This document shows, piece by piece, positions 1 through 17,047 of a DNA stretch of 64,000 bases. Location: the NCBI GenBank assembly GCA_023819375.1, contig JAMWDI010000002.1, positions 121,176-185,175 of the forward strand, read 5' to 3'. Within the stretch, counting starts at the first letter, position 1, and each line of letters opens with the position of its first letter. The DNA is from Candidatus Omnitrophota bacterium (lineage in GTDB: Bacteria; Ratteibacteria; UBA8468; B48-G9; JAFGKM01). The translations under genes were made by a program, and so were the position numbers. Below the pieces are notes generated by a model that worked only from the letters and a program-made list of their open reading frames with translations, made no database searches and was not told where the DNA came from.

Positions 1-1268
1 GTCGCAATCCCCTTTAAAACGGGTCATTTTTTCCAACTATATAGATGGTAAACTTGTTCAAAAATCTCTTGAAACTTGTCGCAATCCCCTTTAAAACGGG
101 TCATTTTTTCCAACACGGGAGCACGGTAGGGGGGAAGAAAAATGCTCCCAAAGGGTCGCAATCCCCTTTAAAACGGGTCATTTTTTCCAACTTTTGAAGG
201 GTTAGCAATTAACCACTCTCTCATTTTTTTTGTCGCAATCCCCTTTAAAACGGGTCATTTTTTCCAACTTATACAAGAGAAGAAGCAATAAAAGACGGTA
301 GAAAAATTGTCGCAATCCCCTTTAAAACGGGTCATTTTTTCCAACGATAGAGAAAAACCTTGTATTTATTCTGCTGATTATATCTCGTCGCAATCCCCTT
401 TAAAACGGGTCATTTTTTCCAACGAAATTTCTGAAAATCTCAATAAAGAGGAGAAAATTAAGTGTCGCAATCCCCTTTAAAACGGGTCATTTTTTCCAAC
501 GGGAATAAAGCCCTGTCCCACCCAGTTATAAATTGTTGAGGTCGCAATCCCCTTTAAAACGGGTCATTTTTTCCAACAGTTAAGTTTTTATATTCTCTTT
601 TTGATAAAAAATACTGCTTGTCGCAATCCCCTTTAAAACGGGTCATTTTTTCCAACGCAAGGTCTCTGGTAGAGGAGCAGCCAGAGTAGAGGGTCGCAAT
701 CCCCTTTAAAACGGGTCATTTTTTCCAACTCTGTAGAATTTTTAGAGCAATATCCTGAAGAAATACAAGTCGCAATCCCCTTTAAAACGGGTCATTTTTT
801 CCAACTTTAGGTAAAGGAGCACTACAGACAGCATTAGCATTAGAAGTCGCAATCCCCTTTAAAACGGGTCATTTTTTCCAACTTATTCTGGAAGCCCAAG
901 AATAAGGCTTGATGGAAACAGAGTCGCAATCCCCTTTAAAACGGGTCATTTTTTCCAACTTATCAATTCCTTATGCTGGATATTCTGCTGTTTTACGTTT
1001 GTCGCAATCCCCTTTAAAACGGGTCATTTTTTCCAACGGAATGGAAAGGATATGAAAAATTCGATGAAGCAATGGAGTCGCAATCCCCTTTAAAACGGGT
1101 CATTTTTTCCAACGTGGCTTCATGTCCTACAATGGACATGAAGCCTTGATTTAGAGTCGCAATCCCCTTTAAAACGGGTCATTTTTTCCAACAAGCAAAT
1201 AGAACTTATGAGGATGAAGAATGAAAAACTTGTCGCAATCCCCTTTAAAACGGGTCATTTTTTCCAAC
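1..1268 (-). CRISPR. CRISPR array, 17 repeats and 16 spacers, truncated at window edge
   Basis: Seventeen apparently identical 37-bp direct repeats start at 1, 78, 155, 232, 309, 387, 464, 541, 620, 693, 769, 846, 923, 1001, 1077, 1156 and 1232. They enclose 16 unique spacers of 36-42 bp. A complete repeat sits exactly at base 1, so the array probably continues to the left. Read on the minus strand the repeat starts GTTGGAAAAAATGACC and ends GGGGATTGCGAC, so the last eight bases (ATTGCGAC) would be the crRNA 5' handle, resembling the ATTGAAA(C/G) handles of many type I/III repeats. A promoter-like site and AT-rich leader lie on the right, next to cas2. Transcription is therefore inferred to run leftwards, the same direction as the cas operon. 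Confidence 0.98.
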
Positions 1269-1450: not shown

Positions 1451-1726
1451 TTAGATAATATAAAACTCTAAATCCCTTGTAACTTCCCCTATTCCAACAA
1501 TTTCAATTTTTTTCAAACAACCTTCACAAATTATATAAAAACGAATACTATCATTTTCTTTATCTATAATTTCTTTTATTTTTTCTTTAATTTTTTTTAA
1601 TTGTTCATCATTTATTAAACATTCAAAAACACTATATTGAACTCTTGTACCATAATTTTCCAAGATTTGGCTTACTTTATGTCTTTTTTTATCATCCTGA
1701 ATATCATAACTGATAACAACAAACAT
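1451..1726 (-). CDS. cas2: CRISPR-associated endonuclease Cas2
   Basis: Ninety-one residues, the usual size for Cas2. The N-terminus reads MFVVISYDIQDDKKRHKV, the ferredoxin-like first strand with the conserved aspartate (D8) of the family. The rest matches the Cas2 pattern: YGTRVQYSVFEC as the second conserved block, then a basic amphipathic helix and a final strand. With Cas1 it forms the integrase complex that inserts new spacers at the leader end of the array, which lies immediately downstream. It is the last gene of the cas operon, two bases after cas1, and has no start ambiguity. Confidence 0.95.
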   Translation of the reverse strand: MFVVISYDIQDDKKRHKVSQILENYGTRVQYSVFECLINDEQLKKIKEKIKEIIDKENDSIRFYIICEGCLKKIEIVGIGEVTRDLEFYII

Positions 1727-1728
1727 TT

Positions 1729-2718
1729 TTACCTCATTTCATAAGGGATATACTCTTGTTCTTCAAGTATTGTTTTTTCAAATTTCCTTATCTGATACTG
1801 GATAAGTTTTCTATAATTCATAGTTTCTTCTTCATATGTTATCTCCGTTAAAATTCTTCTTTCATATTGAGTTAAAAATTCTTTAATTGCTTTTTCATTC
1901 AAACGAATTTTTTCTTCTTCATCTTCAACAAAATCATCTTCTTTTAGAATTTCTTTATTTATAATTTCAAGAACAAGTCGGTCAACTATAACATGTCTGA
2001 ATTCTTCCATTAAATCAAGTGCGAGTGCCGGTCTTCCATAATCAACAGTATGCAAAAATCCAAGATATGGGTCAAAACCAATGCCTTGTAAAATTGAAAA
2101 TACCTCACTTGTTAAAATTGAATATCCAAAACTTAAAAGAGAATTCACTGGGTCTTTAACGTTTCTCGGTGTTCTTTCTTTAAATTCAAAATTTTTAAGT
2201 ATCATATTTCCAAAACATTCAAAGTAAATTGCAGAACATCTTCCTTCAAGACCCATTACTGATGAGATAGAATTTTTTCTTTTTAGTTCTTCAAGATTTT
2301 TTTCAAGTTCTTCAATGTGATTGGAGAAATTTACTTCTGGATGGTTTCTTTGATATCTTAAAAGTAAAATTTTAGCATTGTTTATTTTCCCTTCAACAAA
2401 TTTTTTTGATATGTTCAACTTAAATTCTTCATCCTTATATTTCTCAAATTGCTTTATTCTTAAAAGAACATTTTTTGATTCAACTGGCTGAAGTTTTCCA
2501 ATAAATTTCCCATAAATTGTAAAGAAAGAAGTATCAATCCCTGAAGTTAATAGAAATTTCATTGCCTGGGTAGTTATCTGGATATTACCAAAAATAAAGA
2601 CCTTATCAACTTTAAATTCAGGAATTTCAAGAAGAACAACATCATCTTTTTCTATAACAAATCTCTTATCTTCCTTTTTTAATTTTGCACCCTGCTCTGT
2701 AATGTATAATGTAGCCAA
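1729..2718 (-). CDS. cas1: CRISPR-associated integrase Cas1
   Basis: A 329-residue Cas1 of the type I-B/III kind, normal length and not fused to a reverse transcriptase or cas4. The N-terminal beta domain starts MATLYITEQGAKL. The catalytic all-alpha domain carries the metal-binding glutamate in GLEGRCSAIYFECFGN (about residue 150) and the histidine and acidic residues in the block LHTVDYGRPALALDLMEEFR (about residues 220-242). Together with Cas2 it integrates protospacers. Seven bases separate it from the upstream CARF-HEPN gene, so it belongs to the same transcript as the interference genes. Absence of an RT domain means direct acquisition from RNA is not supported by this gene. Confidence 0.96.
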   Translation of the reverse strand: MATLYITEQGAKLKKEDKRFVIEKDDVVLLEIPEFKVDKVFIFGNIQITTQAMKFLLTSGIDTSFFTIYGKFIGKLQPVESKNVLLRIKQFEKYKDEEFKLNISKKFVEGKINNAKILLLRYQRNHPEVNFSNHIEELEKNLEELKRKNSISSVMGLEGRCSAIYFECFGNMILKNFEFKERTPRNVKDPVNSLLSFGYSILTSEVFSILQGIGFDPYLGFLHTVDYGRPALALDLMEEFRHVIVDRLVLEIINKEILKEDDFVEDEEEKIRLNEKAIKEFLTQYERRILTEITYEEETMNYRKLIQYQIRKFEKTILEEQEYIPYEMR

Positions 2719-2725
2719 ATTTTAT

Positions 2726-4012
2726 TTAAATAAAATTTCTTGGAAGTTGTAAATATTCTATTTTAATTTTTGACCTATTACAACAATTTTCAATGAATTC
2801 CTTTACAAATTGTAAAATTTTTTTCCAGTCCTTCTCTGTAATTGGCGTATCACCATGGGCAAGTTTAGAATTGTTTCTTATCTGTAGAATATTTTTAAAA
2901 ATAGATTCTTTTTCTGCATATACTTTACCAAATTCATCATTCAATTCCAAAAGTAGTTTATAATCATCAACAAGGCCAATTTTTATTTTTCCTTCATTAT
3001 CTCTTTTATTTTCCCAGTAATCTTTATTTTTTACCTTATTTAAATCTAAATCTCCTGTTTCTATACCATAATTTTTTTTCAATCTAATTTGAGCAAATAA
3101 TTCTAAAGTCCTGTAAATTCTTGCACAGGCATTGTCATAAAAACCATTTTCTGCCTGCCTTTCTGCATTACATATTAAATCAAAGACCTTTTCATAACCA
3201 GTTGATTTTGTTTTACCAAGAATTTTTAATAGATAATCTCTGTAATTTGTTAAACTTTTTTCATCTTTTATAACATTAAATGCTTTTTCATATTCAAATA
3301 TATCCCATAAATAAAAACCTTCACAGAAATTTCTTTTTTCTCTTAGTTTTTTCTCAAGTTCACCATTTAATTCAATTTTAGTTAATACATCTTCAATAAT
3401 AATTTTTGCTGGATAATATAAAAAACGAAAAACAAAATTACCTGCGATTTTCAAAATATAGTCAATTCTGGCAAGGTTAAAGTTTTCACGAACAGGTATA
3501 CTTCCTTCTGATATTTTTATTATATTTTCTCTTTTACCTTTTACAAGAGAGGGACTAATATCAAAATTGAATGCACATAAAAGTGAAAGAACACTTGACA
3601 TTGTCTTTGTTCCACCTGTAAAATCAGCAATTACATTACCCATTTCTTTTGCTTTATCAATACAAATTTTTATTTTTTCATAAACTTCAGAAAAATCGTC
3701 AGGGTCATTTAATATAATCTTTTCATAATCACCTTCATATTCTGCCTGTTGGATTATAGAAGGAAATCTTTCTTCTTTCTGAATAGTCGCACCACAATCT
3801 GGGCATTTTATTTGTTTTTTTCTAATGCATGGTTTTTCGTTTATAATAGTTTTTTTATTTTCATCTTTTCCATCAACTGTTATATGACTTGCAATTTCCG
3901 GCTTTCCTCCTGAACATATAAAATAAATAAAATCTGGTTTATATCCTCTAATTGCTTCTACAACCGGCTCGTCTGATCCACCCACCGTAATTATAAGAAC
4001 TTTTTTATTCAT
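2726..4012 (-). CDS. CARF-HEPN effector RNase (Csm6/Csx1 superfamily, TIGR02710-like)
   Basis: A 428-residue two-domain protein. The N-terminal CARF (Rossmann-like) domain opens IITVGGSDEPVVEAI and has the ligand-loop motif DFTGGTKTMSS (TGG at 132-134). The C-terminal third is helical and contains an R-x6-H motif (R379, H386, in RNNSKLAHG), the catalytic signature of HEPN ribonucleases. By family knowledge such proteins are activated by cyclic oligoadenylate made by Cas10 and cleave RNA non-specifically. A CxxC knuckle (C70, C73, with C62 nearby) suggests a small metal-binding insert in the CARF domain. It lies between cmr6 and cas1, three bases after cmr6. Family naming is tentative; the CARF-HEPN architecture is firm. 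Confidence 0.85.
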   Translation of the reverse strand: MNKKVLIITVGGSDEPVVEAIRGYKPDFIYFICSGGKPEIASHITVDGKDENKKTIINEKPCIRKKQIKCPDCGATIQKEERFPSIIQQAEYEGDYEKIILNDPDDFSEVYEKIKICIDKAKEMGNVIADFTGGTKTMSSVLSLLCAFNFDISPSLVKGKRENIIKISEGSIPVRENFNLARIDYILKIAGNFVFRFLYYPAKIIIEDVLTKIELNGELEKKLREKRNFCEGFYLWDIFEYEKAFNVIKDEKSLTNYRDYLLKILGKTKSTGYEKVFDLICNAERQAENGFYDNACARIYRTLELFAQIRLKKNYGIETGDLDLNKVKNKDYWENKRDNEGKIKIGLVDDYKLLLELNDEFGKVYAEKESIFKNILQIRNNSKLAHGDTPITEKDWKKILQFVKEFIENCCNRSKIKIEYLQLPRNFI

Positions 4013-4015
4013 TTT

Positions 4016-4987
4016 TTATATTTCAAATATTCCATAACCCAATGAAGTTTTGGCTCCTATTCCTGTTTCCTTCAGTGCTTCTTTCAAAAGATATATGGCT
4101 TTTTCAATCAAATCTTTATCTTTGCCTATTAAATAAAATTGAAATTTTGTATTTTCAACTGTCAGAAATTTTATGGGTTTTGGATTTTGCCAGTCAGCGG
4201 GTGGTTTTTCCCCTGAATAATAATCAGGATAATGGACATTCATTATATCAATTTTTAAATTTATATTTTCTAAAGGATAAGCATCCATAAAAATTACTTT
4301 ACCTGCCTGTTCTTGAGTTCCAAAGATTTCAATTAAATCCTTAAAATTTATACCATCTACATTAAGTTTAATATCTTCTCCCTTTTCAAGAGCATCTGAT
4401 ACCAATTTTAAAGACTTTTCAAAATCTTCCGTGCCTTTATTTGCTTTTTCTTCAGCAAATTTTAAAACAGCCCAGTGCCTTGTAATACCTTTTACAGCAC
4501 TTCCAGGAATATAAGGAATTCCATAAATATGATGAAGTGTCATAGAAGTCTCCTGAGGATGGGAAGCACCGAGCCCAATTACAAGACGCCATGGACAAAG
4601 GGCAGTGAGGGGTTTTACATTAAAACCACAATTTCTTAAATCTTCTAAAAATCTCTCATTTCTTTTTTTAACAGAATCAAAAAAGTTTTGCCACTTCATC
4701 TTTAAGTTTTCAAATTCCTTTATAACAAGCTGAAGATACTTATCTTTATTTTCCTTATCTTCACCTTCATCTAAGCCCTCAGGAATAAATTTGCTGAAAA
4801 GTAAGTTTATATTTTTCTCAAAATCATTTTTGCATTCATACCACCAATCAATTTTTTCTTCTCTATTTCTTTTTCTATTAAACTCCCATTTACTTTTTTT
4901 AAAAATTTCCATAAATAAAATTTCACAGGTATTCGCTGGATTGTAAAACCTATAGTCAATTCTTTGTCTTTCAATTTTTATTCTCAT
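4016..4987 (-). CDS. cmr6: Type III-B RAMP protein Cmr6
   Basis: 323 residues. A variable helical N-terminal third leads into the Cmr6 RAMP core: LVIGLGASHPQETSMTLHHIYGIPYIPGSAVKGITRHW (about residues 125-165), the glycine-rich loop GIGAKTSLGYGIFEI at the very C-terminus, and the DAYP-containing central strand. Cmr6 caps the 3' end of the crRNA in the Cmr backbone next to Cmr1. Its start overlaps the end of cmr5 by 4 bp, consistent with translational coupling. Confidence 0.93.
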   Translation of the reverse strand: MRIKIERQRIDYRFYNPANTCEILFMEIFKKSKWEFNRKRNREEKIDWWYECKNDFEKNINLLFSKFIPEGLDEGEDKENKDKYLQLVIKEFENLKMKWQNFFDSVKKRNERFLEDLRNCGFNVKPLTALCPWRLVIGLGASHPQETSMTLHHIYGIPYIPGSAVKGITRHWAVLKFAEEKANKGTEDFEKSLKLVSDALEKGEDIKLNVDGINFKDLIEIFGTQEQAGKVIFMDAYPLENINLKIDIMNVHYPDYYSGEKPPADWQNPKPIKFLTVENTKFQFYLIGKDKDLIEKAIYLLKEALKETGIGAKTSLGYGIFEI

Positions 4988-5472
4988 TCTTCCCCTCCTT
5001 CTCCTTCAATCATTCCTTCAGCAAACTTCTTAAGCCAGTTTAAAAAAGCAAGAACTTCTTCTGTTACATACCTGTAGTTATATGAGTCAAGGGAAATAAC
5101 CCATTCAATGAGTTCATTTTGATCTTCAGGCATTCTTATTCTGGCGGTTGAATCACTTTTTAGGTAATCAGTTAGTTGCTTATAGATTAAATCGTAAGCA
5201 TTTTTAGGATTACCTTCAGAACCCGGCTTCTTCTCATCTTTTCCCTTCTTCCTTTTAGCACATATAAATGCAAGAGTCTGACCTAAACCGTTTGAGAGAA
5301 TCATTGAAGGAATTTTTTTTACATACGATTTATATTTGTCATCTTCATAGAACTCTCCATTTATTTCTATCTTTTGCAAAATGCTTTTGCCTTCTAACGC
5401 ACATTTATAAGCAAACTCAGCTCTACCCTTTTCAAGTTTTGTAATTAATGTTAATGTTTCTTTTTCAGACAT
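4984..5472 (-). CDS. cmr5: Type III-B small subunit Cmr5
   Basis: 162 residues, all helical by composition, starting with a helix (LEKGRAEFAYKCAL) characteristic of Cmr5 and containing the conserved KSYVKKIPSMILSNGLGQTLAFI block (about residues 48-70). Cmr5 forms the small-subunit filament (Cas11 role) that contacts target RNA. A low-complexity charged loop (KGKDEKKPGSEGNPKN) interrupts the middle. The gene overlaps cmr4 by 8 bp and cmr6 by 4 bp. Confidence 0.92.
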   Translation of the reverse strand: MSEKETLTLITKLEKGRAEFAYKCALEGKSILQKIEINGEFYEDDKYKSYVKKIPSMILSNGLGQTLAFICAKRKKGKDEKKPGSEGNPKNAYDLIYKQLTDYLKSDSTARIRMPEDQNELIEWVISLDSYNYRYVTEEVLAFLNWLKKFAEGMIEGEGGEE

Positions 5473-6565
5473 GGTTATCCTCCTTTTGTTTTAAAATATT
5501 TACCCTTACAAACCCTTTCCCTATGGTTTGATTTCCACCTATCTGAATTACTGGTGGAAGACCTTTTTCAAAAAATTCTGAAACAAGTTTTGCCTCTTTA
5601 TCTGGGGAATCTGCTTTAAAAATTCCTTTCTGGTCTTCATTTTCTACCCTTGGAAAGGTAAACATAACAAGTGAATAGAGAATAGTATCCTGAGGAAGAT
5701 ACTCCTCTGTCCATAAGCCACCTGTCTTTTTATCAACCGTCCCCGTTATATTATCAATTCTTGTCCTTGTAATAACCTCAGTTGATGTTTTAACAAATTG
5801 CTTAAAATCATCATCACTTAAAATTACAAGGTCTTTTCTTAATTTCTCTTTCCAAAAATTATAGGTGTTAGTATTGGGTAAAATGTTATCAGCAAGCCAT
5901 TCTGCTATATTAGATGTTGTCTCATTTTCACTTACTTCAAATGTAAATTCCTCAAGTACAACTTTAGATGAAATGGAGATATTTGTTTGTCCTGGCAAAC
6001 TCTTTTCTAACTGACCAAAATTGTTGAAACTAAAGCCACTTATTCCAGCAAGTTCAAGGTCTTTTTTAAATCTCTCCAGAACCATTGGACAGGTAATCCA
6101 AGCAAATACACCTTTTAATGACTTTACAGGAAATAGCAAAATCCTTGCATCAGTTATGCTCATAGCACCAGCATGGGCTTCCTCGCCTTCTGGACCAAAA
6201 ACAAGAGCGATCGCTTCATCAAATTTAATTAGTTCATTTTTATCTTTGTCTGTTTTTATTTCTTCTTTTTCATTACCTTTTTCATCTTTAACTTTTATTT
6301 TCCATGGATTAGATATATCTGGAAAACGTCCTACCAGTTTTTTCACATTATCACATTCAATTAACTTACTCTTCTTATTTTCAAACACCTTATAATTTTC
6401 AAAAGCTTCCCTTAGACACCCCTTTAGACCTGAACTTTCAATCTTTGGGAAATCTGTATATCGTTCTCTCTGAATGGGTAGATCAACTATGCCAACTTCA
6501 CTTCCACTACCTGCATGAACAGGTGTTTCTGCTATTAAAAATAATACCCTTTTTTCTTTAAACAT
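5465..6565 (-). CDS. cmr4: Type III-B backbone nuclease Cmr4
   Basis: 366 residues, longer than the roughly 300 typical of Cmr4 because of a charged insert around residues 75-105. The N-terminus has the RAMP start with TPVHAGSGSEVGIVDLPIQRERYTD. D28 lies where the catalytic aspartate that cuts target RNA every six nucleotides is found in characterised Cmr4 proteins, followed by KIESSGLKGCLRE (glycine-rich RAMP loop). The C-terminus carries GGNQTIGKGFVRV, another G-loop. It forms the repeated Cas7-like backbone. It follows the CARF-RelE-like gene after two bases. Confidence 0.94.
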   Translation of the reverse strand: MFKEKRVLFLIAETPVHAGSGSEVGIVDLPIQRERYTDFPKIESSGLKGCLREAFENYKVFENKKSKLIECDNVKKLVGRFPDISNPWKIKVKDEKGNEKEEIKTDKDKNELIKFDEAIALVFGPEGEEAHAGAMSITDARILLFPVKSLKGVFAWITCPMVLERFKKDLELAGISGFSFNNFGQLEKSLPGQTNISISSKVVLEEFTFEVSENETTSNIAEWLADNILPNTNTYNFWKEKLRKDLVILSDDDFKQFVKTSTEVITRTRIDNITGTVDKKTGGLWTEEYLPQDTILYSLVMFTFPRVENEDQKGIFKADSPDKEAKLVSEFFEKGLPPVIQIGGNQTIGKGFVRVNILKQKEDNHV

Positions 6566-6567
6566 CT

Positions 6568-7752
6568 CTATACCTCCTTTTTGATTTTATAAAATTCGTA
6601 TGTTTCAAGATTTTTAATTTTTTCTCTCTGTTTTTCAAAAGTTTCTACATATTCACTCTCTGCGTTATGAACTTCACTGCCAATTGCTATTAGTCCTACG
6701 TAAACTGATATCTCAACTGATCCATAGACTGTATTATACCGCTCATCCTTATATAAAATTCTTACCTGTAAATCTTCTTCTTTATGTTTAAAGGTCTTAA
6801 AACCTTCTGGTAAATTAATATTTTTTAAAGAATGGTTAAGATCCGGGTGAGCAGGATTTTCTTTTAATCTTCTTTTAAGTTCACATACTGATTTTTCAAA
6901 TATTCTCTTTCTTTCCGGATTTCTTTCAAGATAGTTTTTGACCTCTTCAGATAGGTAGAAAAATTCAAAATTTGATTTATATCTTTCCCATAAAGCAACT
7001 CCCAATGGATTAAGATTATAAAGATTATCTGCAAATTCAAGTAATGAAGTTATATCCGGGTCTATTTTTAATTTTTCATCAATTTCTTTTATTTGGTTTT
7101 TTTCTAATTCAAAAAAGAATTTCTCATTGTTTTCAAAAATTGACCATTTTATATCAATTGGAATAATTGGTATTTTTATCAATGCATCTGTCTCTTCAAA
7201 GATATAATAAATTGGGCATCTATTAATCTGGGCAAGAATTGTAAGATAAGGTATTGTTGCTTTATATCCACCTGTAATGTTAATGATTACATTATCCCAG
7301 TATCCGCCAGCAATATTATAGATTTCCCTAATTAGATTTGACATACCGGCATTGAATTCTTTTCTATCCCAGATTTGAAGACCACTGATTACCTTTAATT
7401 GAATATTCAGGCTCTTAATTGTATCGGGTAAAATATCTTTTATTATCTCTCCAACAAGTCTGCTTACAATTGTATCAGAACATAAAAAATAAATTTCAAA
7501 ATCCTCTTTCAATTCTTCCTGGAGTTTTAAAAGACTTTTTATTTCTGCGGATACGTCTTTCTTGTCATATTCACATTGTATCCATCTTCTTACTGCTTTT
7601 TCTACACCCTCTCTTCTTGCTTTTTCATTATCCCAATCTTTTTCTCTTTTTTCTTTAAGGACATCATAATAATTTTTAATTGTTTTGTCATCGTTTTTCT
7701 CAAAATAATTTTCAAAAATTGACGCTCCTACCATTGTAATTATCTTTTTCAT
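6568..7752 (-). CDS. CARF-RelE-like effector (candidate Cami1-type mRNA interferase)
   Basis: 394 residues. The N-terminal half is a CARF domain (APE2256/TIGR02619 type): MVGASIFENY start, YFLCSDTIVSRLVGE near 88-102, and the ligand loop NITGGYKATIPYL (TGG at 160-162). The C-terminal approximately 110 residues (285-375) do not look like HEPN. They resemble a RelE/ParE toxin: a basic helix FEKSVCELKRRLKENPAHPDLNH, a strand pair FKHKEEDLQVRILYK, then VYVGLIAIGSEVHNAESEY, with R331 and basic residues where RelE toxins have catalytic ones. The described CARF-RelE protein Cami1 cuts mRNA at the ribosome after cyclic oligoadenylate binding, so this is inferred to be similar. It overlaps cmr3 by 4 bp and precedes cmr4 by 2 bp, inside the complex operon. 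The CARF domain is sure; RelE assignment is by eye. Confidence 0.72.
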   Translation of the reverse strand: MKKIITMVGASIFENYFEKNDDKTIKNYYDVLKEKREKDWDNEKARREGVEKAVRRWIQCEYDKKDVSAEIKSLLKLQEELKEDFEIYFLCSDTIVSRLVGEIIKDILPDTIKSLNIQLKVISGLQIWDRKEFNAGMSNLIREIYNIAGGYWDNVIINITGGYKATIPYLTILAQINRCPIYYIFEETDALIKIPIIPIDIKWSIFENNEKFFFELEKNQIKEIDEKLKIDPDITSLLEFADNLYNLNPLGVALWERYKSNFEFFYLSEEVKNYLERNPERKRIFEKSVCELKRRLKENPAHPDLNHSLKNINLPEGFKTFKHKEEDLQVRILYKDERYNTVYGSVEISVYVGLIAIGSEVHNAESEYVETFEKQREKIKNLETYEFYKIKKEV

Positions 7753-8837
7753 GGCACCCCTATAAAACTCAGTCCAAAACCTTCTTCTGGGTTTATATCT
7801 GAGATATTTTTAAAATGAAAAACTTTCTTAATCTCCCCAAGCGAACCACTTAAGACTTTAAAATAATAGACGCTTCCATCTGGCACTGCTTTATACATTG
7901 ATTTTGGTTCATTTTTTGCCATATCCCAACCAGCAATTCTTATAAATTTACCTATAGCACAAGCAATAAGTTTTAACTTAATTTCATCTTTCTCACCTTC
8001 CAAAGTTTCTGCATTTATCCATTCGGGCAACCATCCTTTTTTAAATATAGCAGGGGTTGCAAGATAGATTTTAAAAATTCCATCTTTAAGTTCAAAATTC
8101 ATATTTTCTAAATCTTCTAAAGGATTATTATTTATTTTCTCAAATTTCACCGTCTTCCCTTCCCCACCAAGAGCAAAGAGACCTTTTTCTGGCATATTTT
8201 CTATTCCATCAAACTTTACTAAAAAACAATAATCTTTCTTTAATCTTATCATTGGGATTCTATAAAGATAACCTTCCTTTGAAGAAAGGGTTATGTCCTC
8301 CCTCGCAATACCTATTTTCGGTTCTGTTGTATAAAATCCCGATATAAAAGAATATTCTCTTTTTTGCCCTTGCAGGTATTCCTTAAAAGTGATACTATCT
8401 AGATACCCTTCAGCAGATTCCACCTGTTCCCTCTTTTGATAAATAAGTATATCTTCAAGGGGATATTCAGCATAAAATATTTCTGGTTTTTTAACTTTGC
8501 TGATTTGAAAAAGTTTATCCTTTTTCTTATTTTCTTTCTTCATTACCAAATCCAATGGAGCAGGGAAATAAGTTTTGCCATTTTCAGAATTAAAGATAAG
8601 TGGACCTATAATTTTCATTGTTCCTTTTTTATCCGGTGTTCCAATATCCTTCTTGTATTTTCCACTTTTAAATTCTCTTAAACTGCCTCTCTCAAAGATT
8701 AAAAATGTTCTCAATGCTCCATAAATTGTAGAAGGATAGGGTGGAAAAATACTATCTGCCCAAGTTTCAGAGCCCATACTGAAAGGTCTTCCAGAGCGAA
8801 AAAATAAAGTATCGTTTGGATAAATCTTTATCCACAT
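7749..8837 (-). CDS. cmr3: Type III-B RAMP protein Cmr3
   Basis: 362 residues beginning MWIKIYPNDTLFFRSGRPFSMG, the hallmark Cmr3 N-terminus, followed by FPPYPSTIYGALRTFL. The C-terminus contains GWDMAKNEPKSMYKAVPDGSVYYF and ends GFGLSFIGVP, the final RAMP glycine loop. Cmr3 binds the crRNA 5' handle together with Cmr2 and is the Cas5-like subunit. It starts two bases after cmr2 ends and its stop overlaps the start of the CARF-RelE-like gene. Confidence 0.94.
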   Translation of the reverse strand: MWIKIYPNDTLFFRSGRPFSMGSETWADSIFPPYPSTIYGALRTFLIFERGSLREFKSGKYKKDIGTPDKKGTMKIIGPLIFNSENGKTYFPAPLDLVMKKENKKKDKLFQISKVKKPEIFYAEYPLEDILIYQKREQVESAEGYLDSITFKEYLQGQKREYSFISGFYTTEPKIGIAREDITLSSKEGYLYRIPMIRLKKDYCFLVKFDGIENMPEKGLFALGGEGKTVKFEKINNNPLEDLENMNFELKDGIFKIYLATPAIFKKGWLPEWINAETLEGEKDEIKLKLIACAIGKFIRIAGWDMAKNEPKSMYKAVPDGSVYYFKVLSGSLGEIKKVFHFKNISDINPEEGFGLSFIGVP

Positions 8838-8839
8838 CT

Positions 8840-11599
8840 TTAATCCTCCCCTTTATGAATGAAAGTTGCAATAGTGCAAAAGTTAGTGAAATAATCTAAA
8901 TTACCACCTATGTTCCAGAATAAATTGCTCATGTGATTAAATAGATTTTCTATAAACTCTTTTTTATCTTTATCTGATATCTTTTTTTCTTTTGGAGAGT
9001 TATAGGATCTATCAAGAAGTCTTAATATTTCCTTGTTAATAATATCTGCTGTTCCTATAAAATAGCCTTCTTTGTCTTTTAAATGCGCAAATTCTAAGGC
9101 AAATTTTTGAATAAATCCCTTTGCTATATAACCTTCTTCATTATTTTCATCAAAAGATTTTACTATTTCCTTTAATGTCTTAATTGTATCTCTATCATCA
9201 TATTTCCACTGTGCAGTTACAGTTCTCTCCTCACCAGAACGTTTCATCAAACATATGGCAAATCTATTTTTGCCTTCACCTTTTGCAAGTTTTTCCATCT
9301 CAAAAACCTTTCTAATAACAATTTGAAGAGGAGTTTTATAATGGGCAATCACAACTCCCATAGAGGCAGTTGCTTCTGGACCCATTGTAAGAATAAATCT
9401 TCCATCTTTTTCAACAAACCCTGTTTGATTTTTAATATCAATTTCAATTTCTCCATTTTCAACTTTTATCTGACCTGAAAAAGCCCATCTAAGTTTTTGC
9501 ATAACATCAAATAAATCTTTAAGGTTAACAAAAGCCAAAACATCATCACCTCCTGCATAAATTAGTTTTCCGAAATGTTCTTCTTCAATTATTTTTCTCA
9601 CAAATTCAAGGGCATAGTTTCTTAAGGCTGTTGAAATAGAAGTATGGATAGCAGGAGTTAGAAGTTTTTTGCATGATATGTTCGTTAAATCTTTTTTAAA
9701 ATTATCAGGTAGATTTTGCCACGCTTTGGAATTATAGGCATTTTCAATACGAGGTAAAAGTTCACCTGAAAGCCATTTACCCATATTGTCGGCATCAAGA
9801 TGAAGAATGGCATAATAAGGATTTGGTTTTCCTATTTTATCAGTAAGTTTTTTTAATCTTTCTTTTATCTCTTTTAATTTGGTTTCACCTAATTGAATTT
9901 CCAGTTCTTTGTTAATAAGTTTTTCAGTTAAATTTTCTTCATAGAACCATTGACCTTCTAAATTCTCTTTTATATTAAACTTTGGAAGCGGTTTACTTGT
10001 TGGAAATTTCTCCTGAAGCAATTTTTCCTGGTAGATAATAAACTCATCTTTTGCGATGTTTATTGCTTTATCTTTAAAATCGGCACAGGCAATTTCTGCT
10101 GTGGATGGGAAAGTTAAATTTTTAAATACCTGCGATACTTCTTTTTCCAGATATATTTCAAATGTTCTTTTAATAAAGCAAATCGCACAAAGACCTTCAC
10201 CATCAGCAATATATTTTAATAAAACTTTTGGGTTGTCAGTTAAATCAATAGCATATGGATTAAATCTTAAAAATTTATTTTTATTAGCCGTTTCTCTAAA
10301 AAAGATTACATCTCTTTCTCCACAAACTGAGCATTTTCTACCTTTTTCTTCCATCTGTACAAATTCTCTTAAATTTTTCCTTGCTCCCATTGATTTTTCA
10401 AGAGTTGAATATAGAATTTCATAAAGAAGACCTATGTTGGGTGAAAATTGACTATTTTTAGTTGCAAATTCCCATAAATCCTGATAATTCTTTAAAACTT
10501 CCTCTTCAAAGTATTCTTTTAGATCATCAAAGGAAATGTCTCTATTGTTAATTTTCCATGGAACGGCAACCCAGTATACTTCTGGAAATTCAGAAAGTTG
10601 AGAGTTGATTTTACTATTGGTTCTTCCCGAAGGATTTATACTTAGTTCTTGAAATATCAAATCTTTAGTGTTATTAATTGCGTTTCTTATACTGTTTTGC
10701 ATTTCTTTAAAAAGATTGGTGATTTCTTTCCCATCAGTTATAGGTAATAAAGCTACAAATCTATTGGGTATTGTAGGAAGTTGAATTGAATTTTCATCAA
10801 AATCTGTTATGTCAATTCCATTCTTCTTAAGCCACCAATCCATAAGTGGTTGTTTATAAAGGTCTGGATAAATAATGTTTGTTGGTCCGTATTTATCAAT
10901 GATTATTTCCATTGATTTAAAAGTGAGAAATGAAAGGATGAAGCTTCCCATGTAAAAATCCTGGGTTTTTCGTGCCTGAGAGATAAAGCTCTGCACAGGT
11001 CCTATAGTAAATAGAAACAGACAATTGTTTTGATGAAGAACTTTATTTTCTTCATCCCAATAGGCGTGGAGTGCAGAGGCGATTTTCAGATGTTCCCAGA
11101 TTGAGTGGTCCGGGACCCTGGTATCAGCAGGAAGAATGGGTAGATATTTAATCCAAGATTTGTCATTTAAATTTTGAAATATTTTATCCTGAAGATTTCT
11201 CCAGAGATAGAAAAATTTTTTCTTATCATCCAGGTTTGAAATTTCCTTACCAATTTTTTCATATACCTCACCAATGGCTTTAAAGATTTCTTCTTTTATA
11301 TAATTTTCATTACCAATAGCTTTAAAGATCTCTTCCTTTTCACAATCTTCATTTGGTAATTTTCCTTTGCAGAGGGGGTGTCTTACCTCGGTAAAATTTT
11401 GAGTAACTTTACCTTTTTTTGGCAATAAACTTCTTTCCATGCATGAGGCAATGTGGTCTGGCCCCTCAGTTTCTTCAACTCCTGAAATATCAAGTTTTTG
11501 AGCATAATTTTTTGCTCTCTCAATATGGGTAGAAATATCAAAACATTTATCAATTGGGTCGTGTAAAAATGCTTTTAATTTTTCAGTGAAGTCATTCAT
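8840..11599 (-). CDS. cmr2: Type III-B large subunit Cmr2 (Cas10)
   Basis: 919 residues. An N-terminal HD nuclease pair (H13-D14 in FLHDPIDK) is followed by the first palm region (LFLFTIGPVQSFISQARKTQDFYMGSF, about 195-220) and a zinc finger (C423/C426 with C471/C474). The second palm has HLDADNMGKWLSGEL (about 600) and YAGGDDVLAF with the GGDD cyclase motif at 683-686. Both active sites look intact, so the enzyme could cut ssDNA and make cyclic oligoadenylate from ATP, feeding the two CARF proteins encoded in the same operon. Residues 90-117 contain a 14-residue tandem duplication (EEIFKAIG twice). It overlaps cmr1 by 4 bp. Confidence 0.96.
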   Translation of the reverse strand: MNDFTEKLKAFLHDPIDKCFDISTHIERAKNYAQKLDISGVEETEGPDHIASCMERSLLPKKGKVTQNFTEVRHPLCKGKLPNEDCEKEEIFKAIGNENYIKEEIFKAIGEVYEKIGKEISNLDDKKKFFYLWRNLQDKIFQNLNDKSWIKYLPILPADTRVPDHSIWEHLKIASALHAYWDEENKVLHQNNCLFLFTIGPVQSFISQARKTQDFYMGSFILSFLTFKSMEIIIDKYGPTNIIYPDLYKQPLMDWWLKKNGIDITDFDENSIQLPTIPNRFVALLPITDGKEITNLFKEMQNSIRNAINNTKDLIFQELSINPSGRTNSKINSQLSEFPEVYWVAVPWKINNRDISFDDLKEYFEEEVLKNYQDLWEFATKNSQFSPNIGLLYEILYSTLEKSMGARKNLREFVQMEEKGRKCSVCGERDVIFFRETANKNKFLRFNPYAIDLTDNPKVLLKYIADGEGLCAICFIKRTFEIYLEKEVSQVFKNLTFPSTAEIACADFKDKAINIAKDEFIIYQEKLLQEKFPTSKPLPKFNIKENLEGQWFYEENLTEKLINKELEIQLGETKLKEIKERLKKLTDKIGKPNPYYAILHLDADNMGKWLSGELLPRIENAYNSKAWQNLPDNFKKDLTNISCKKLLTPAIHTSISTALRNYALEFVRKIIEEEHFGKLIYAGGDDVLAFVNLKDLFDVMQKLRWAFSGQIKVENGEIEIDIKNQTGFVEKDGRFILTMGPEATASMGVVIAHYKTPLQIVIRKVFEMEKLAKGEGKNRFAICLMKRSGEERTVTAQWKYDDRDTIKTLKEIVKSFDENNEEGYIAKGFIQKFALEFAHLKDKEGYFIGTADIINKEILRLLDRSYNSPKEKKISDKDKKEFIENLFNHMSNLFWNIGGNLDYFTNFCTIATFIHKGED

Positions 11600-12693
11600 A
11601 GGATCAACTCCTCTCTTTTAGGTAAACCATTTAAAAAATTGTTTACAAGTTTTTCAGTAAATTTTTTAACATTACTCTTATTCCATTTATTATCTCTTTT
11701 TTCTTCCATTCCAATATAATTTACTCCTCCAGGCGATAATTTTACTATCACTGGAAAATATAAATTGTTTGATGATTTAATAACCTTAAAAATCAAAAAA
11801 GAAGCCCACCTTTCTGAAAGTCGCTCCTTATTATTATCGTAAGGAACCATTCTGGTAGAAAATCCTGAATGCATTATAGGCATACCAAAGGTTGCTGTTT
11901 CAAAAATTTGGGATTTGTTATTATTTCTAAACTTCCTATATTCTTCCCCTAAAAAATTTAATGCTTCTTTCCAGTCATTTTTTGGATCGAAGATTAAAAT
12001 TCTTGCATCCTTAAGATTTGTATATTCTAATTGTGCATAACTTGTATTAGTCCCGCAGATTTTTTTAATTTCGGTTAGATTCCTTTCCAAAAACTTTTTC
12101 AATTGAGAAGTATCTTTTGCATCACAAATAAAATCAAGATTTATATCATTATTTTCATCTACCTGTGTTACCTCAATATTTCCGCCACCTCTTCTTGCTC
12201 TTGTGCCAAATCCACCAAGGTATATAGCAAGCCAAAGGGATGCACATGCTTTTTTAAAAGCTTCTTCATTCATAAAGGTTAAAGTTAATTCAAATTCATA
12301 ACCATTTTTTATATAGGATCTTTCTCTATTAGGCAACACAGTGGAATATAATAAATATCCAATGCCTGCATTTTCTCCAGCAAGTGAGTTGGTATTTCTG
12401 TCAAAACACCAGTGTAAGTTATAATCCACCTTTAAATTATTACCTATATTTAGTGAGGATATTCCTTTAATTTTCAGTTGCACTTTACTTTTCCCTTCCT
12501 CTTCTCCTGTTCCACCAAAAATTTCTGCTTCTTCCCTTTTCAATTTTTCAATGTTATCTTCTGCCTTAATTGCTCTCCACCACCATCGCATCATACCTTT
12601 GAATTCTGAAGGTCGTAATTCAGGAGTTTCTCCATCTGCACCAGCCATAAACATAGGTGTGATTAATTTACATTTTAATTTTAAGATTTTCAT
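11596..12693 (-). CDS. cmr1: Type III-B RAMP protein Cmr1
   Basis: 365 residues starting MKILKLKCKLITPMFMAGADGETPELRPSEFKGMMRWWWRA, the diagnostic Cmr1 N-terminus (TP-x-F-GA and RWWWRA). IFGGTGE and the GGFGTRARRGGGNIEV loop (about residue 155-172) follow. Cmr1 sits at the 3' end of the crRNA with Cmr6. This is the first gene of the cas operon; a good Shine-Dalgarno (AAAGGAGA) lies 8 bases before the ATG, and upstream is non-coding DNA with a TTGACA-like -35. The gene length is normal for a single Cmr1. Confidence 0.94.
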   Translation of the reverse strand: MKILKLKCKLITPMFMAGADGETPELRPSEFKGMMRWWWRAIKAEDNIEKLKREEAEIFGGTGEEEGKSKVQLKIKGISSLNIGNNLKVDYNLHWCFDRNTNSLAGENAGIGYLLYSTVLPNRERSYIKNGYEFELTLTFMNEEAFKKACASLWLAIYLGGFGTRARRGGGNIEVTQVDENNDINLDFICDAKDTSQLKKFLERNLTEIKKICGTNTSYAQLEYTNLKDARILIFDPKNDWKEALNFLGEEYRKFRNNNKSQIFETATFGMPIMHSGFSTRMVPYDNNKERLSERWASFLIFKVIKSSNNLYFPVIVKLSPGGVNYIGMEEKRDNKWNKSNVKKFTEKLVNNFLNGLPKREELIL

Positions 12694-13116: not shown

Positions 13117-14451
13117 TTACTTAATTTTCCAGTATCTGCTTAAATAAAAACTTTTTGCCTTTTTAATTCTTTCAAAATGATTTATAATAGGTTTATAATA
13201 CGGCAAATTAAATTCCAAAGGATTATGCAACATATATGAAGGAATTTTTTTCAATTCAGGTAAATATTTTTTTATAAATTTTGCATAAGGATCAAATTTT
13301 TGACTTTGAATAACAGGATTAAAAATCCTAAATGGTTTCGGGTCTGGACCAACAGAAGTACACCATTGCCAATTACCAACGTTTACAACTTCATCATAAT
13401 CAATAAGATATTGTTTAAAAAATTCTTCTCCAATTCTCCAATCAATAAGTAAATCCTTTGTTAAAAAATTTGCAAGAATCATTCTTAATCTATTGTGAAT
13501 CCAATTTTCTTCTTTTAACTGAATAATTGCTGCATCAATTATTGGATATCCAGTTTTTGCATTAATAAATGCATCTAAAAATTTTTCATTGTTTTCCCAT
13601 TTTAAATTTCTTCTTTTTTCTTGAAATTCTATATCTTTAAATCCTGAAAAATTTATTTTTATATGATACCAAAATTCTCTCCATGCAAGTTCTTTTATAA
13701 ATAGATTGTCTTTACCGCTCTGCTCTGTTACTTCTTTAAGTATTTTTCTTAAAGAAACTATTCCAAATCGTATGTAAGGGGATAACTTTGAAGTACCATC
13801 TATATCAAGCCTATTTCTTTTTTCTTCATAATCCTTGAATTTAAAACTTCTTAATCTTTTTATTCCCCAGTTTACACTCCAATATTTATTTTTGCAAAAT
13901 TTAAGATTTTTTGAAATTTTAAAAATATCAGGTTCGTTTACTAATATGAAATTAATCCTTTGAGGTGGTTTAAAGATTACAGTATTAACAAAATTTTTCC
14001 ATTTTTTATAAAAATTTGTAAAAACCTTCTCATACGGGATTTTATTTATAAAACAGAGAAAGTTATCCGGTATTGCATAAAAGTTAACACCTCTTTTTTT
14101 ACAAATTATTTCAACTTTTTTCTCAATTTCTTCTCTTGTCCAGGAAAAAGATTTGTTAGTAAATACTGCTTCAATTTTGTATTTTGAAATAAGATAATCA
14201 AAAACTTTAACAGTATCCCCATAGAAGCAAAAAAGATTGCCTCCTTTTTTATTAATTTCAATGGTTAAATTTTCAACACAATCTATAATAAATCCTAATC
14301 TACTGTCATAACTTTTGTATTTTTCAAGTATGTTATGGTCAAATATAAATATTGGGATTAAACCTTCTGATTTTTTACAACATTCATTGAATGCTTTATT
14401 ATCGTCTATTCTTAAATCTCTTTTAAACCAGTAGATGGTCTTTTTATACAT
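13117..14451 (-). CDS. phr: Deoxyribodipyrimidine photolyase
   Basis: 444 residues, typical for a class I photolyase/cryptochrome. The N-terminal Rossmann domain opens TIYWFKRDLRIDDNKAF. The FAD-binding C-terminal domain has KELAWREFWYHI, GYPIIDAAIIQLKEENWIHNRLRMI (about 305-330), and VVNVGNWQWCTSVGPDPKPFRIFNP, the residues that cradle FAD and the cyclobutane dimer. It repairs UV-induced pyrimidine dimers using light. It is the last gene of the repair segment and overlaps the upstream DUF523-DUF1722 gene by 8 bp, a pairing also seen in E. coli (ybgA-phrB). Its presence suggests light exposure of the habitat. Confidence 0.95.
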   Translation of the reverse strand: MYKKTIYWFKRDLRIDDNKAFNECCKKSEGLIPIFIFDHNILEKYKSYDSRLGFIIDCVENLTIEINKKGGNLFCFYGDTVKVFDYLISKYKIEAVFTNKSFSWTREEIEKKVEIICKKRGVNFYAIPDNFLCFINKIPYEKVFTNFYKKWKNFVNTVIFKPPQRINFILVNEPDIFKISKNLKFCKNKYWSVNWGIKRLRSFKFKDYEEKRNRLDIDGTSKLSPYIRFGIVSLRKILKEVTEQSGKDNLFIKELAWREFWYHIKINFSGFKDIEFQEKRRNLKWENNEKFLDAFINAKTGYPIIDAAIIQLKEENWIHNRLRMILANFLTKDLLIDWRIGEEFFKQYLIDYDEVVNVGNWQWCTSVGPDPKPFRIFNPVIQSQKFDPYAKFIKKYLPELKKIPSYMLHNPLEFNLPYYKPIINHFERIKKAKSFYLSRYWKIK

Positions 14452-15358
14452 TTAGTTCATCTGGATATGGCTCTAAATATTTTTGACAAAGCAGATATTC
14501 GTTATCAAATCTATAGGATAAATTTTTCAAAAGTTCAACTATTACTTTCAAATCTATTCTCCCTCTTTTGTAATTTTCCAATAAAGAAAATATATGTTTT
14601 TTTTCTTTAGAATTTAATCTGTCCTTTATGTGACCTATTATATGCAATAATGTATTTATATGCCTACTTGGCGAAGGTTTTCTTAAAAATGCTAAATAAA
14701 ATCTATCTTTATATAACATTAGTTTCTGGGAAACACTTAATTTACCATCTGCTACTAACTGTCCAAGTTCTTTTAAATATTTTTGGTTATATGTCATAAG
14801 AAGATATTTATATTTTGTATGGAAGTCAACTAATTTCTTTATTTCAGGTTTTTTCAATAATTCACGTAATTCTGCAAAAGCAAAGATTCTTATAAGAAAA
14901 TGTTCTCTAATTTCTCTATTTTTTAATCTTCCTTCATCTTCAATAGGTAAATAATAAAATTTTTCTTTAATTTTTTCTGCAAAAATCCCATAAGTTTTAC
15001 TTATGAATTTACCATCTTTATATAATTTTGCTGAACCAACACCACAAGATGGAGAGTTCGCTTTTAAAAGAAAACCATCAACTTCTTTCAATGATTCAAT
15101 AATGTTTTGACTATATTTTATAATTTTATCTGTCAAATCATTTTCGGTATCAGTTTGAATTAACCTTTTAGAGCCATTATTTTTAACAATTATTATACTT
15201 TTTCTTGGAACTCCAAGCCCTACATCAAATTCAGGACAAACCTCAATATAATCAACATAATTTTTAAGTTTTTCTACAAATTCATCTTTTACCATTTCTC
15301 CATTATATCTAACTGGCTGACAAAAACATTTACTTAAAATAATTTTAGGTCGTATCAT
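14444..15358 (-). CDS. DUF523 (TudS-like)-DUF1722 (YbgA-like) fusion protein
   Basis: 304 residues with two domains. Residues 1-150 are DUF523, with cysteines in SKCFCQPVRYNG, VCPEFDVGLGVPR and SPSCGVG that fit the iron-sulfur site of the thiouracil desulfurase TudS. Residues 165-300 are DUF1722, with FHTKYKYLLMTYNQKYLKELG and an amphipathic helical tail. Such fusions commonly neighbour photolyase genes. Desulfuration of modified pyrimidines is known for DUF523 members; the function of DUF1722 is not established. It overlaps phr by 8 bp, implying shared expression. Confidence 0.85.
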   Translation of the reverse strand: MIRPKIILSKCFCQPVRYNGEMVKDEFVEKLKNYVDYIEVCPEFDVGLGVPRKSIIIVKNNGSKRLIQTDTENDLTDKIIKYSQNIIESLKEVDGFLLKANSPSCGVGSAKLYKDGKFISKTYGIFAEKIKEKFYYLPIEDEGRLKNREIREHFLIRIFAFAELRELLKKPEIKKLVDFHTKYKYLLMTYNQKYLKELGQLVADGKLSVSQKLMLYKDRFYLAFLRKPSPSRHINTLLHIIGHIKDRLNSKEKKHIFSLLENYKRGRIDLKVIVELLKNLSYRFDNEYLLCQKYLEPYPDELNV

Positions 15359-15382
15359 TTGTTTTTTTCCTATTATTTCACT

Positions 15383-15868
15383 TTACATGTTTGACCATTT
15401 TTGGACAAGATAATCTCTTCTTGGTTTATAAACTGCCTCATAAAAATATCTTTGAGAAAGCAAAATACCTTTATCAACATTTTTACATATATTAATTGCT
15501 TCTTCCCAAACCTTTTCAAAATTTTTAAACCTCTTTGCAACTTGTTTTTCAAATTTTTCCTCATCTTGTATTTCACCACCAATTGTAAAGTATTTTATAC
15601 CACCAATTGTAACACAATATGCCATTTCATCACCTATTCTTTCAATTCCAAAACTTTTCTCTATTTCTTCAATTTTTTCTTCTGGTAATTTAGTCCTTTT
15701 ACGAAGTAATTCCTTTTGTGGTCTTTGAACTTTAAATCCTTTTTTAGCAGCAGCATAGAATATTGCGCGATTCAAACCAAAACTTTTAGCACTTGATAAA
15801 GGATAACCTAAAACATATGCTCTTGCTGCCTGTAAAACTGCCATAACTTGAAATCTACTTATACCCAT
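15383..15868 (-). CDS. Conserved-looking protein of unknown function, ligase neighbour
   Basis: 161 residues, not recognised. The N-terminus (MGISRFQVMAVLQAARAYVLGYPLSSAKSFGLNRAIFYAAAKKG) is alanine-rich and helical. The middle has a short beta segment (MAYCVTIGGIKYFTIGGE). The C-terminus is charged and helical (QVAKRFKNFEKVWEEAINIC). No membrane segment, signal peptide or metal motif is visible. Its start overlaps the end of the minimal ligase gene by 14 bp, so the two are probably co-translated. Inference only: it may serve the ligase, which lacks its own OB domain. Codon use is like its neighbours. Confidence 0.7.
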   Translation of the reverse strand: MGISRFQVMAVLQAARAYVLGYPLSSAKSFGLNRAIFYAAAKKGFKVQRPQKELLRKRTKLPEEKIEEIEKSFGIERIGDEMAYCVTIGGIKYFTIGGEIQDEEKFEKQVAKRFKNFEKVWEEAINICKNVDKGILLSQRYFYEAVYKPRRDYLVQKWSNM

Positions 15869-16433
15869 ATTTCAATTTCCTCCAGTCAATAGTTGCTATT
15901 GGTGCTTCTATTCCAACTTGATAGATAGAATTTAAATTTTTAAAAACAACCCCTTCTGCATCTTTTGAAATTTTAATTTTTGAAAAATCAATAAAGTTTT
16001 CATATTTAAGTATATAAAAGGGTTCAACAAATTTTAATCCTTCAAGAATTTTTTTCCTTTCTTTTAAAGTTTTCGTTCCAACAAATTCATTATTAAAAAA
16101 TATGACATCAAAAATAAAAATAACTGGCTTCACATTTTTATTTTTTGCAAATAAAGAAGGGATACCACTTCTTCCTCTATCAGAATAAAGTTCACAGTCA
16201 AGAAGAGTATAATCAGGAAGTAACTTCAAAAGAATATCCTTTAGATAAAACAGTTTATCTGTCCAATTTGGTTTCTTTTCCAATCTTCTTCCCCAAAATT
16301 CTACTTCATTTTTAAATTTTATAATTTGCATTCTCCAGCCGTCAATTTTTTCTTCATAAATCCATTCTCCTTCAAGTTTTTCTCCAAAATAAGGAATAGG
16401 TTGCATAAGCCAGATTGGGCCTGTTAATTTCAT
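15855..16433 (-). CDS. Minimal ATP-dependent DNA ligase (adenylation domain only)
   Basis: 192 residues holding the nucleotidyltransferase core: motif I EKIDGWR with the adenylated lysine (K29), the WGRR strand, motif III LLDCELYS, motif IIIa FIFDVIFF, motif IV AEGVVFKN, and motif V DWRKLKYG at the C-terminus. The protein then stops, so the OB-fold and motif VI normally supplied by DNA ligases are missing. It would seal nicks in repair or be a related RNA/DNA nucleotidyltransferase. It lies between the alkyladenine glycosylase gene (4-bp overlap) and a 161-residue unknown (14-bp overlap), supporting a repair role. Confidence 0.82.
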   Translation of the reverse strand: MKLTGPIWLMQPIPYFGEKLEGEWIYEEKIDGWRMQIIKFKNEVEFWGRRLEKKPNWTDKLFYLKDILLKLLPDYTLLDCELYSDRGRSGIPSLFAKNKNVKPVIFIFDVIFFNNEFVGTKTLKERKKILEGLKFVEPFYILKYENFIDFSKIKISKDAEGVVFKNLNSIYQVGIEAPIATIDWRKLKYGYK

Positions 16434-17047
16434 CTTGATAAAAATTTTGAATCTTTAATTATAAAGCGCCAGGGTAAATATTTATCTTTCCCAGCATAAG
16501 GTATATTAATTCTTGAAGTTGTAATTATCTCATCTTCTTTAACTTTTTCTCCTTCAACTATATAAATTTCATCACCTTCTATCATATCATAGCCATTTAA
16601 ATCCCTTCCAATTTTTAATCCTTTACATATTTTCCCAGGGCCATTTAAAAGTTTAGTGATATCGTAATTTTTATCTTTATTTAAATTTTCAATAATTTTC
16701 TCAATACCCAAAATTGGCTCAAGAGCACGAAAAAGAACTCCTCCTGCTTTGTTATCTTTATGTGCGACTACATTTAAACAATAGGTGTTTATGTATACAG
16801 GATAAATATATGCCTTACCAACTTCTCCAAATAGCAATTCCGTCTTTTTAGTTCTTCCATATCTTCCTACATGGCAACCCTTATCTTCAGTTCCCCCGTA
16901 TGCCTCTGTTTCAACAATTTTCCCAATAATTATTTCACTATCAATTTTACGGATTATATATTTTCCTAAAAGTTCTTTTGCTACAACAACTGGCTCTCTT
17001 TTAAAAAATTCTCTATTCAATCTTTTAAAATCCGAATTTACCCCCAT
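16430..17047 (-). CDS. 3-methyladenine DNA glycosylase (AAG/MPG family)
   Basis: 205 residues, normal length for bacterial AAG-type glycosylases. Diagnostic blocks are VAKELLGKYIIRK, KIVETEAYGGTEDKGCHVGRYGRTKKTELLF (active-site glutamate in VETEAY), AYIYPVYINTYCLNVV, GGVLFRALEP, and LLNGPGKICKGLKI near residue 150. It excises alkylated purines and starts base excision repair. Its stop overlaps the ligase start by 4 bp, so excision and sealing functions are expressed together. Confidence 0.95.
   Translation of the reverse strand: MGVNSDFKRLNREFFKREPVVVAKELLGKYIIRKIDSEIIIGKIVETEAYGGTEDKGCHVGRYGRTKKTELLFGEVGKAYIYPVYINTYCLNVVAHKDNKAGGVLFRALEPILGIEKIIENLNKDKNYDITKLLNGPGKICKGLKIGRDLNGYDMIEGDEIYIVEGEKVKEDEIITTSRINIPYAGKDKYLPWRFIIKDSKFLSR

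Follow-up and report, generated by a model that had tools for sequence, protein, structure and literature searches.

The gene flanked by cmr3 and cmr4 within a complete type III-B CRISPR operon of a Candidatus Omnitrophota bacterium very probably encodes a Cami1-type CARF-wHTH-RelE effector, a reading that draws on its sequence and on a structure model. This kind of effector has already been described; the gene adds a member that is slightly unusual in its mid-operon position. The features of the window (the whole stretch of DNA analyzed here, 64,000 nucleotides) are collected in Table 1. The original prediction had placed an open reading frame at this location with junctions of 4 and 2 bp, and its coordinates, strand, and junctions were all confirmed: the gene overlaps cmr3 by 4 bp (ATGA, within GCCATGA) and is separated from cmr4 by a 2-bp gap, and the opposite (plus) strand over the same interval is full of stops. 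Translation of the gene looks coupled to that of cmr3. A strong AGGAGG-type ribosome-binding site for cmr4 is located inside the last codons of the focal gene, so cmr4 could be translated independently.

Table 1. Features of the type III-B locus and domains of the focal effector (window coordinates unless another contig is given)
Feature	Coordinates	Strand	Details
CRISPR array end	1..~1270 (1..1268)	plus	array of about 92 repeats starting left of the window
cas2	1451..1726	minus	
cas1	1729..2718	minus	PADLOC/profile matches
Second effector, CARF-HEPN Csx1/Csm6 type	2726..4012	minus	PF09670 E=7e-32; TIGR02710 E=6e-44; R-X6-H RNNSKLAH
cmr6	4016..4987	minus	PADLOC/profile matches
cmr5	4984..5472	minus	PADLOC/profile matches
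cmr4	5465..6565	minus	TIGR02580 E=1.1e-73
Focal gene, probable Cami1-type effector	6568..7752	minus	394 aa, ATG start; CARF7 (about residues 1-200), wHTH-like linker (204-259), RelE/ParE-fold domain (262-391)
RelE/ParE-fold (BECR) domain, residues 262-391	6580..6969	minus	putative catalytic K322, R331, H362, Y368
CARF (Cas_APE2256) domain, residues 1-200	7153..7752	minus	PF09651 at residues 66-197
cmr3	7749..8837	minus	TIGR01888 E=3.6e-46
cas10/cmr2	8840..11599	minus	TIGR02577 E=9.4e-87; HD (FLHDP), GGDD cyclase motif (YAGGDDVLAF)
cmr1	11596..12693	minus	PADLOC/profile matches
cas6, beside the array outside the window	G000:C3:114272-115201		

On the minus strand, the operon runs cmr1, cas10/cmr2, cmr3, the focal gene, cmr4, cmr5, cmr6, the csx1-like gene, cas1, and cas2, followed by the array. 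Cas10, with its intact GGDD motif, is the predicted source of the activator of the focal effector, and the gene order suggests that the effector would be co-produced with the Cmr complex. No antitoxin gene adjoins the focal gene; membership among the type II RelE/ParE toxins was considered and rejected, given that the RelE domain is fused to CARF and the neighbors are cmr3 and cmr4. Scanning the operon for promoters and terminators gave results at chance level. Upstream of the cmr operon (window positions 13117-17047), we observed a repair-type run of genes encoding a photolyase, a DUF523/DUF1722 protein, an ATP-dependent ligase domain, and a methylpurine-DNA glycosylase.

Several searches agree that the protein is a homologue of the CARF-RelE effector Cami1, as had been proposed. 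The PADLOC model PDLC01936 (CARF7--CARF_RelE) covers residues 1-392 with an E value of 3.7e-123. In a single-sequence search of the PDB, Cami1 was matched over focal residues 64-258, and a profile built from 11 relatives reached residues 3-350 of Cami1 (8phb) with an E value of 5.7e-39. The full-length AlphaFold (AF2) model (pLDDT, 87.7; pTM, 0.83) has as its best structural neighbors Cami1 entries 8phj (Z score of 22.2 over 355 residues) and 8phb (Z score of 21.4), with the Cami1 alignment extending across focal residues 2-391. Entry 8phj is Cami1 with cyclic tetra-adenylate (cA4) on the ribosome and 8phb is apo Cami1; both are reportedly the work of Mogila et al. (2023; cited in PMC11229360).

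Pfam detects the CARF part of the protein alone (PF09651; E=8.1e-30), and the TGGYKA motif occurs within ITGGYKA at residues 159-165; the APE2256-type CARF assignment of the original prediction is thereby upheld. In an alignment of the 11 relatives, S11, E70, and K164 are invariant or nearly so. These residues correspond to S12, E70, and K167 of the Synechocystis CARF-RelE protein SyCsm6, which have been implicated in the binding of cA4 and in ring-nuclease activity (PMC9676260). With these three residues in place, the focal CARF domain may have intrinsic ring-nuclease activity. Between CARF and RelE, the AF2 model predicts a wHTH-like linker, with elements at residues 204-259.

Because the CARF domain could dominate the match list of the full-length model, the last 137 residues were also modeled alone (pLDDT, 88.6) and aligned structurally with VIA-align, a check equivalent in form to the one proposed with the original prediction. 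The predicted fold is beta-alpha-alpha-beta-beta-beta-alpha-beta. Its best matches are Cami1 (Z scores of 7.8 and 7.7) and RelE on the 70S ribosome (7.1 and 6.6); Z scores of 7 to 8 lie in the range where chance matches occur, but RelE-type structures nonetheless occupy nearly all of the top places. ParE1, RelE1, RelE2, HigB2, and HigB follow, and matches down to a Z score of 5.0 are mostly RelE, ParE, or HigB; the unrelated chain 3lgo also appears (Z score of 5.8), after which scores drop to 3.7. No Pfam RelE/ParE family matched the C terminus in any of the 11 relatives, a C-terminal profile gave only weak hits to PDB sequences (YoeB ranked first, at E=0.2), and plain Foldseek with the C-terminal model alone returned nothing below E=0.2. 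Since neither Pfam nor Foldseek gave a significant match, it is PADLOC, the fold model, and VIA-align that support assignment to RelE. The domain is conserved as much as the whole protein, with 67, 61, 53, and 51% identity to the four closest relatives (65, 62, 51, and 52% for the whole protein), and it is therefore under constraint. The predicted RelE/ParE-like, non-HEPN character of the C terminus thus held, while its extent, given as about 110 residues, was somewhat too short (about residues 262-391).

A putative active site can be traced within this domain. R331 is invariant in all 11 relatives, and K322, Y351, and Y368 are nearly invariant in the C-terminal alignment; H362 is present in most relatives, the exceptions being L034 and L037. 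Focal K322, R331, and H362 match residues of Cami1. Within the stretch compared, the two Cami1 entries differ solely by one His-to-Ala change in 8phj, and the mutated His follows the last core strand, the same placement as that of H362. The identical HDEY string is found in two relatives. By this correspondence, H362 is a candidate catalytic residue.

By homology, target RNA recognition would cause Cas10 to make cA4, which would be bound by the dimeric CARF domain and release the RelE domain. The latter would then dock in the ribosomal A site and cleave mRNA, shutting down translation under virus attack, until slow cleavage of cA4 by the CARF domain switched the effector off. A different division of labor is conceivable, in which the protein is mainly a ring nuclease whose CARF domain degrades cA4 and so restrains the neighboring CARF-HEPN Csx1, the RelE part being weak or inactive. 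Residues 1-262 do align to the ring nucleases Sis0811 (7pq2) and SSO1393 (3qyf) with Z scores of 20 to 21, and the ring-nuclease residues are present. Moreover, SyCsm6 cleaves cA4 and cA6 but, when assayed in vitro in the absence of ribosomes, displayed no RNase activity, and its K167A variant lost cA4 cleavage (PMC9676260); we saw no APE2256 ring nuclease encoded on its own in the operon of the window, versus one each in loci L011, L038, and L039. We nonetheless judge this reading unlikely. Conservation of the RelE domain equals that of the CARF domain and includes an invariant R331 and a near-invariant K322, and Cami1 itself has ring-nuclease activity (PMC12409355; PMC12830947). As Cami1 does both jobs, ring-nuclease activity is compatible with mRNA cleavage.

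The identity of the C-terminal domain bears on two other readings. ParE and RelE have a common fold, and Mycobacterium tuberculosis ParE1 is among the matches to the C-terminal model (Z score of 6.5), so the domain might act as a gyrase poison rather than as a ribosome-dependent RNase; this is very improbable, as ParE does not have the RNase catalytic residues (PMC11980606), whereas the K/R/H/Y set is conserved in the focal family, and the best C-terminal matches are to Cami1 and ribosome-bound RelE. That the protein is instead a CARF-HEPN (Csm6/Csx1) effector is scarcely credible. One R-X6-H string (RLKENPAH) does occur in the C-terminal region, but its His is not conserved in L008, L009, or L011; no HEPN family matched the protein, the predicted beta-alpha-alpha-beta-beta-beta-alpha arrangement is not a helical bundle, and the operon has a genuine CARF-HEPN gene elsewhere, at 4012-2726. 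HEPN was rejected for the C terminus on these grounds. The original prediction had named a HEPN or PIN fold among the outcomes that would speak against it, and neither appeared among the structural matches listed for the C-terminal model.

The Cami1-type reading also fits with what is known of related systems. The focal protein and Cami1 share the CARF7-wHTH-RelE architecture, the matching His, Arg, and Lys, and a type III CRISPR context. However, they are only ∼20% identical, and the focal protein, known here from sequence and a model, has a longer beta hairpin in its C-terminal domain and is encoded between cmr3 and cmr4. Activation by cA4, mRNA cleavage at the A site, and capture by the ribosomal stalk further characterize Cami1, and the focal protein may share these properties. 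SyCsm6 (Sll7062) likewise joins CARF7 to RelE, has the same ring-nuclease residues, and is paired with a CARF-HEPN Csx1 (PMC9676260), but it is encoded by the last gene of a III-D operon. E. coli RelE on the 70S ribosome (4v7k and 4v7j) resembles the focal C-terminal fold over 93 residues; unlike the focal protein, it is a stand-alone toxin without a CARF domain that is held by the RelB antitoxin. Crn1-type ring nucleases such as Sis0811 and SSO1393 share the CARF and linker region but have no RelE domain, while Csx1/Csm6 proteins are also CARF-gated RNases of type III systems, with HEPN in place of RelE. Cami1 is present in 135 of 1,113 type III loci (about 12%), 54 of which also have Csx1 (PMC11229360); the effector is therefore common, as is its pairing with a CARF-HEPN gene.

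The position of the gene between cmr3 and cmr4 recurs in relatives. Cami1 lies directly or closely upstream of cmr4 in nine loci (the window, L008, L009, L010, L011, L035, L037, L038, and L039), which span at least three named phyla in addition to that of the window: Nitrospirota (L008), Actinomycetota (Candidatus Humimicrobiia; L009), and Thermodesulfobacteriota (L010 and L011). Locus L009 is cut at a contig edge, so the cmr4 side alone is visible there; in the remaining eight, cmr3 is found on the far side of Cami1. In L073, Cami1 comes after cmr3, at the edge of the contig. In a tree of 68 Cmr4 proteins, the nine loci fall into a single clade (SH-aLRT, 99) and the state changes just once, and the Cami1 proteins of cmr3-cmr4 loci group together on the Cami1 tree (93/90). 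The single Cmr4 clade indicates that the position is inherited, consistent with one insertion, after which the gene was transferred horizontally along with the rest of the cmr module. It also agrees with the original suggestion of a gene integrated into the operon and not appended to its end. The Cami1 copy nearest that of the window on the protein tree (L010:444-1566) is broken by several stops, with cmr4 to cmr6 intact downstream.

In L033 and L034, from the same phylum as the window, Cami1 follows cmr6 and adjoins a CARF-HEPN gene, and in L070, from a genome of the same family, the cmr3-cmr4 junction is empty. Identity of Cmr3 and Cmr4 to the proteins of the window ranges from 52 to 82% across the five most similar loci of other genomes; the cmr genes of L033 and L034 are just 33 to 49% identical to those of the window. 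Relatives of the csx1 and cas1 genes were found solely in L033 and L034 among the loci compared (51 to 66% identity). The simplest reading is a mosaic, in which a cmr module already holding Cami1 moved from phylum to phylum and became linked to a local csx1-cas1-cas2 segment. With the patterns used, no relative was found in viral contigs, and plasmids yielded one partial match only.

In the literature covered by our partial search, we found no discussion of this internal position. A further and rather improbable idea is that, in this Cmr lineage, Cami1 does not diffuse freely but belongs to the cmr module as an integral component, produced in concert with the complex and perhaps bound to it; if so, the fixed cmr3-Cami1-cmr4 order through cross-phylum transfer would reflect it. 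The loci described here extend Cami1 to a divergent branch, its named members having come largely from thermophilic genera, and offer a testable case of an effector retained inside the core operon of its sensing complex. The clade also supplies natural comparisons between copies that have or lack the conserved His or a companion ring-nuclease-like protein, in addition to the one broken copy.

Other CARF genes were observed near these effectors. A stand-alone, ring-nuclease-like CARF7/APE2256 protein of 274 to 277 aa is encoded alongside Cami1 in L011 (9224-10057), L038 (seen as L080), and L039 (5803-6627); in two of these three loci, its gene is also placed between cmr3 and cmr4, and the L038 copy is just upstream of cmr4. 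In L072 (4209-6425), from a genome of the same genus, a CARF7 protein of 738 aa that carries an HD-type domain (PADLOC CARF_HD and CARF_CYTH_HD; Pfam HD-CE) is encoded directly before a cas10 gene.

Gene content at cmr junctions was surveyed in 60 cmr4 loci, a nonrandom sample composed of the best matches from two phyla chosen for holding Cami1. Extra genes were present at the cmr3-cmr4 junction in 10 of these loci, divided equally between CARF genes (5 loci) and toxin-antitoxin-like genes (5 loci), and none was seen at the cmr4-cmr5 junction in the 56 loci with cmr5 detected. Given that the surveyed loci are related, independent junction events are few (perhaps four). The toxin-antitoxin-like genes between cmr3 and cmr4 include a RelB-like antitoxin with a ParE/RelE-family toxin (PF18506 and PF05016) in L121 (2380-2812, minus strand) and a DUF433-DUF5615 (PIN-like) pair in the related loci L109 (833-1467, plus strand; covered by the Pfam run) and L110 (2355-2956, minus strand). 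Judged by eye, L087 (2415-3016, plus strand) carries a Phd-type antitoxin with a VapC-like open reading frame and L095 (1184-1465, minus strand) a Phd-type remnant, both antisense to their operons.
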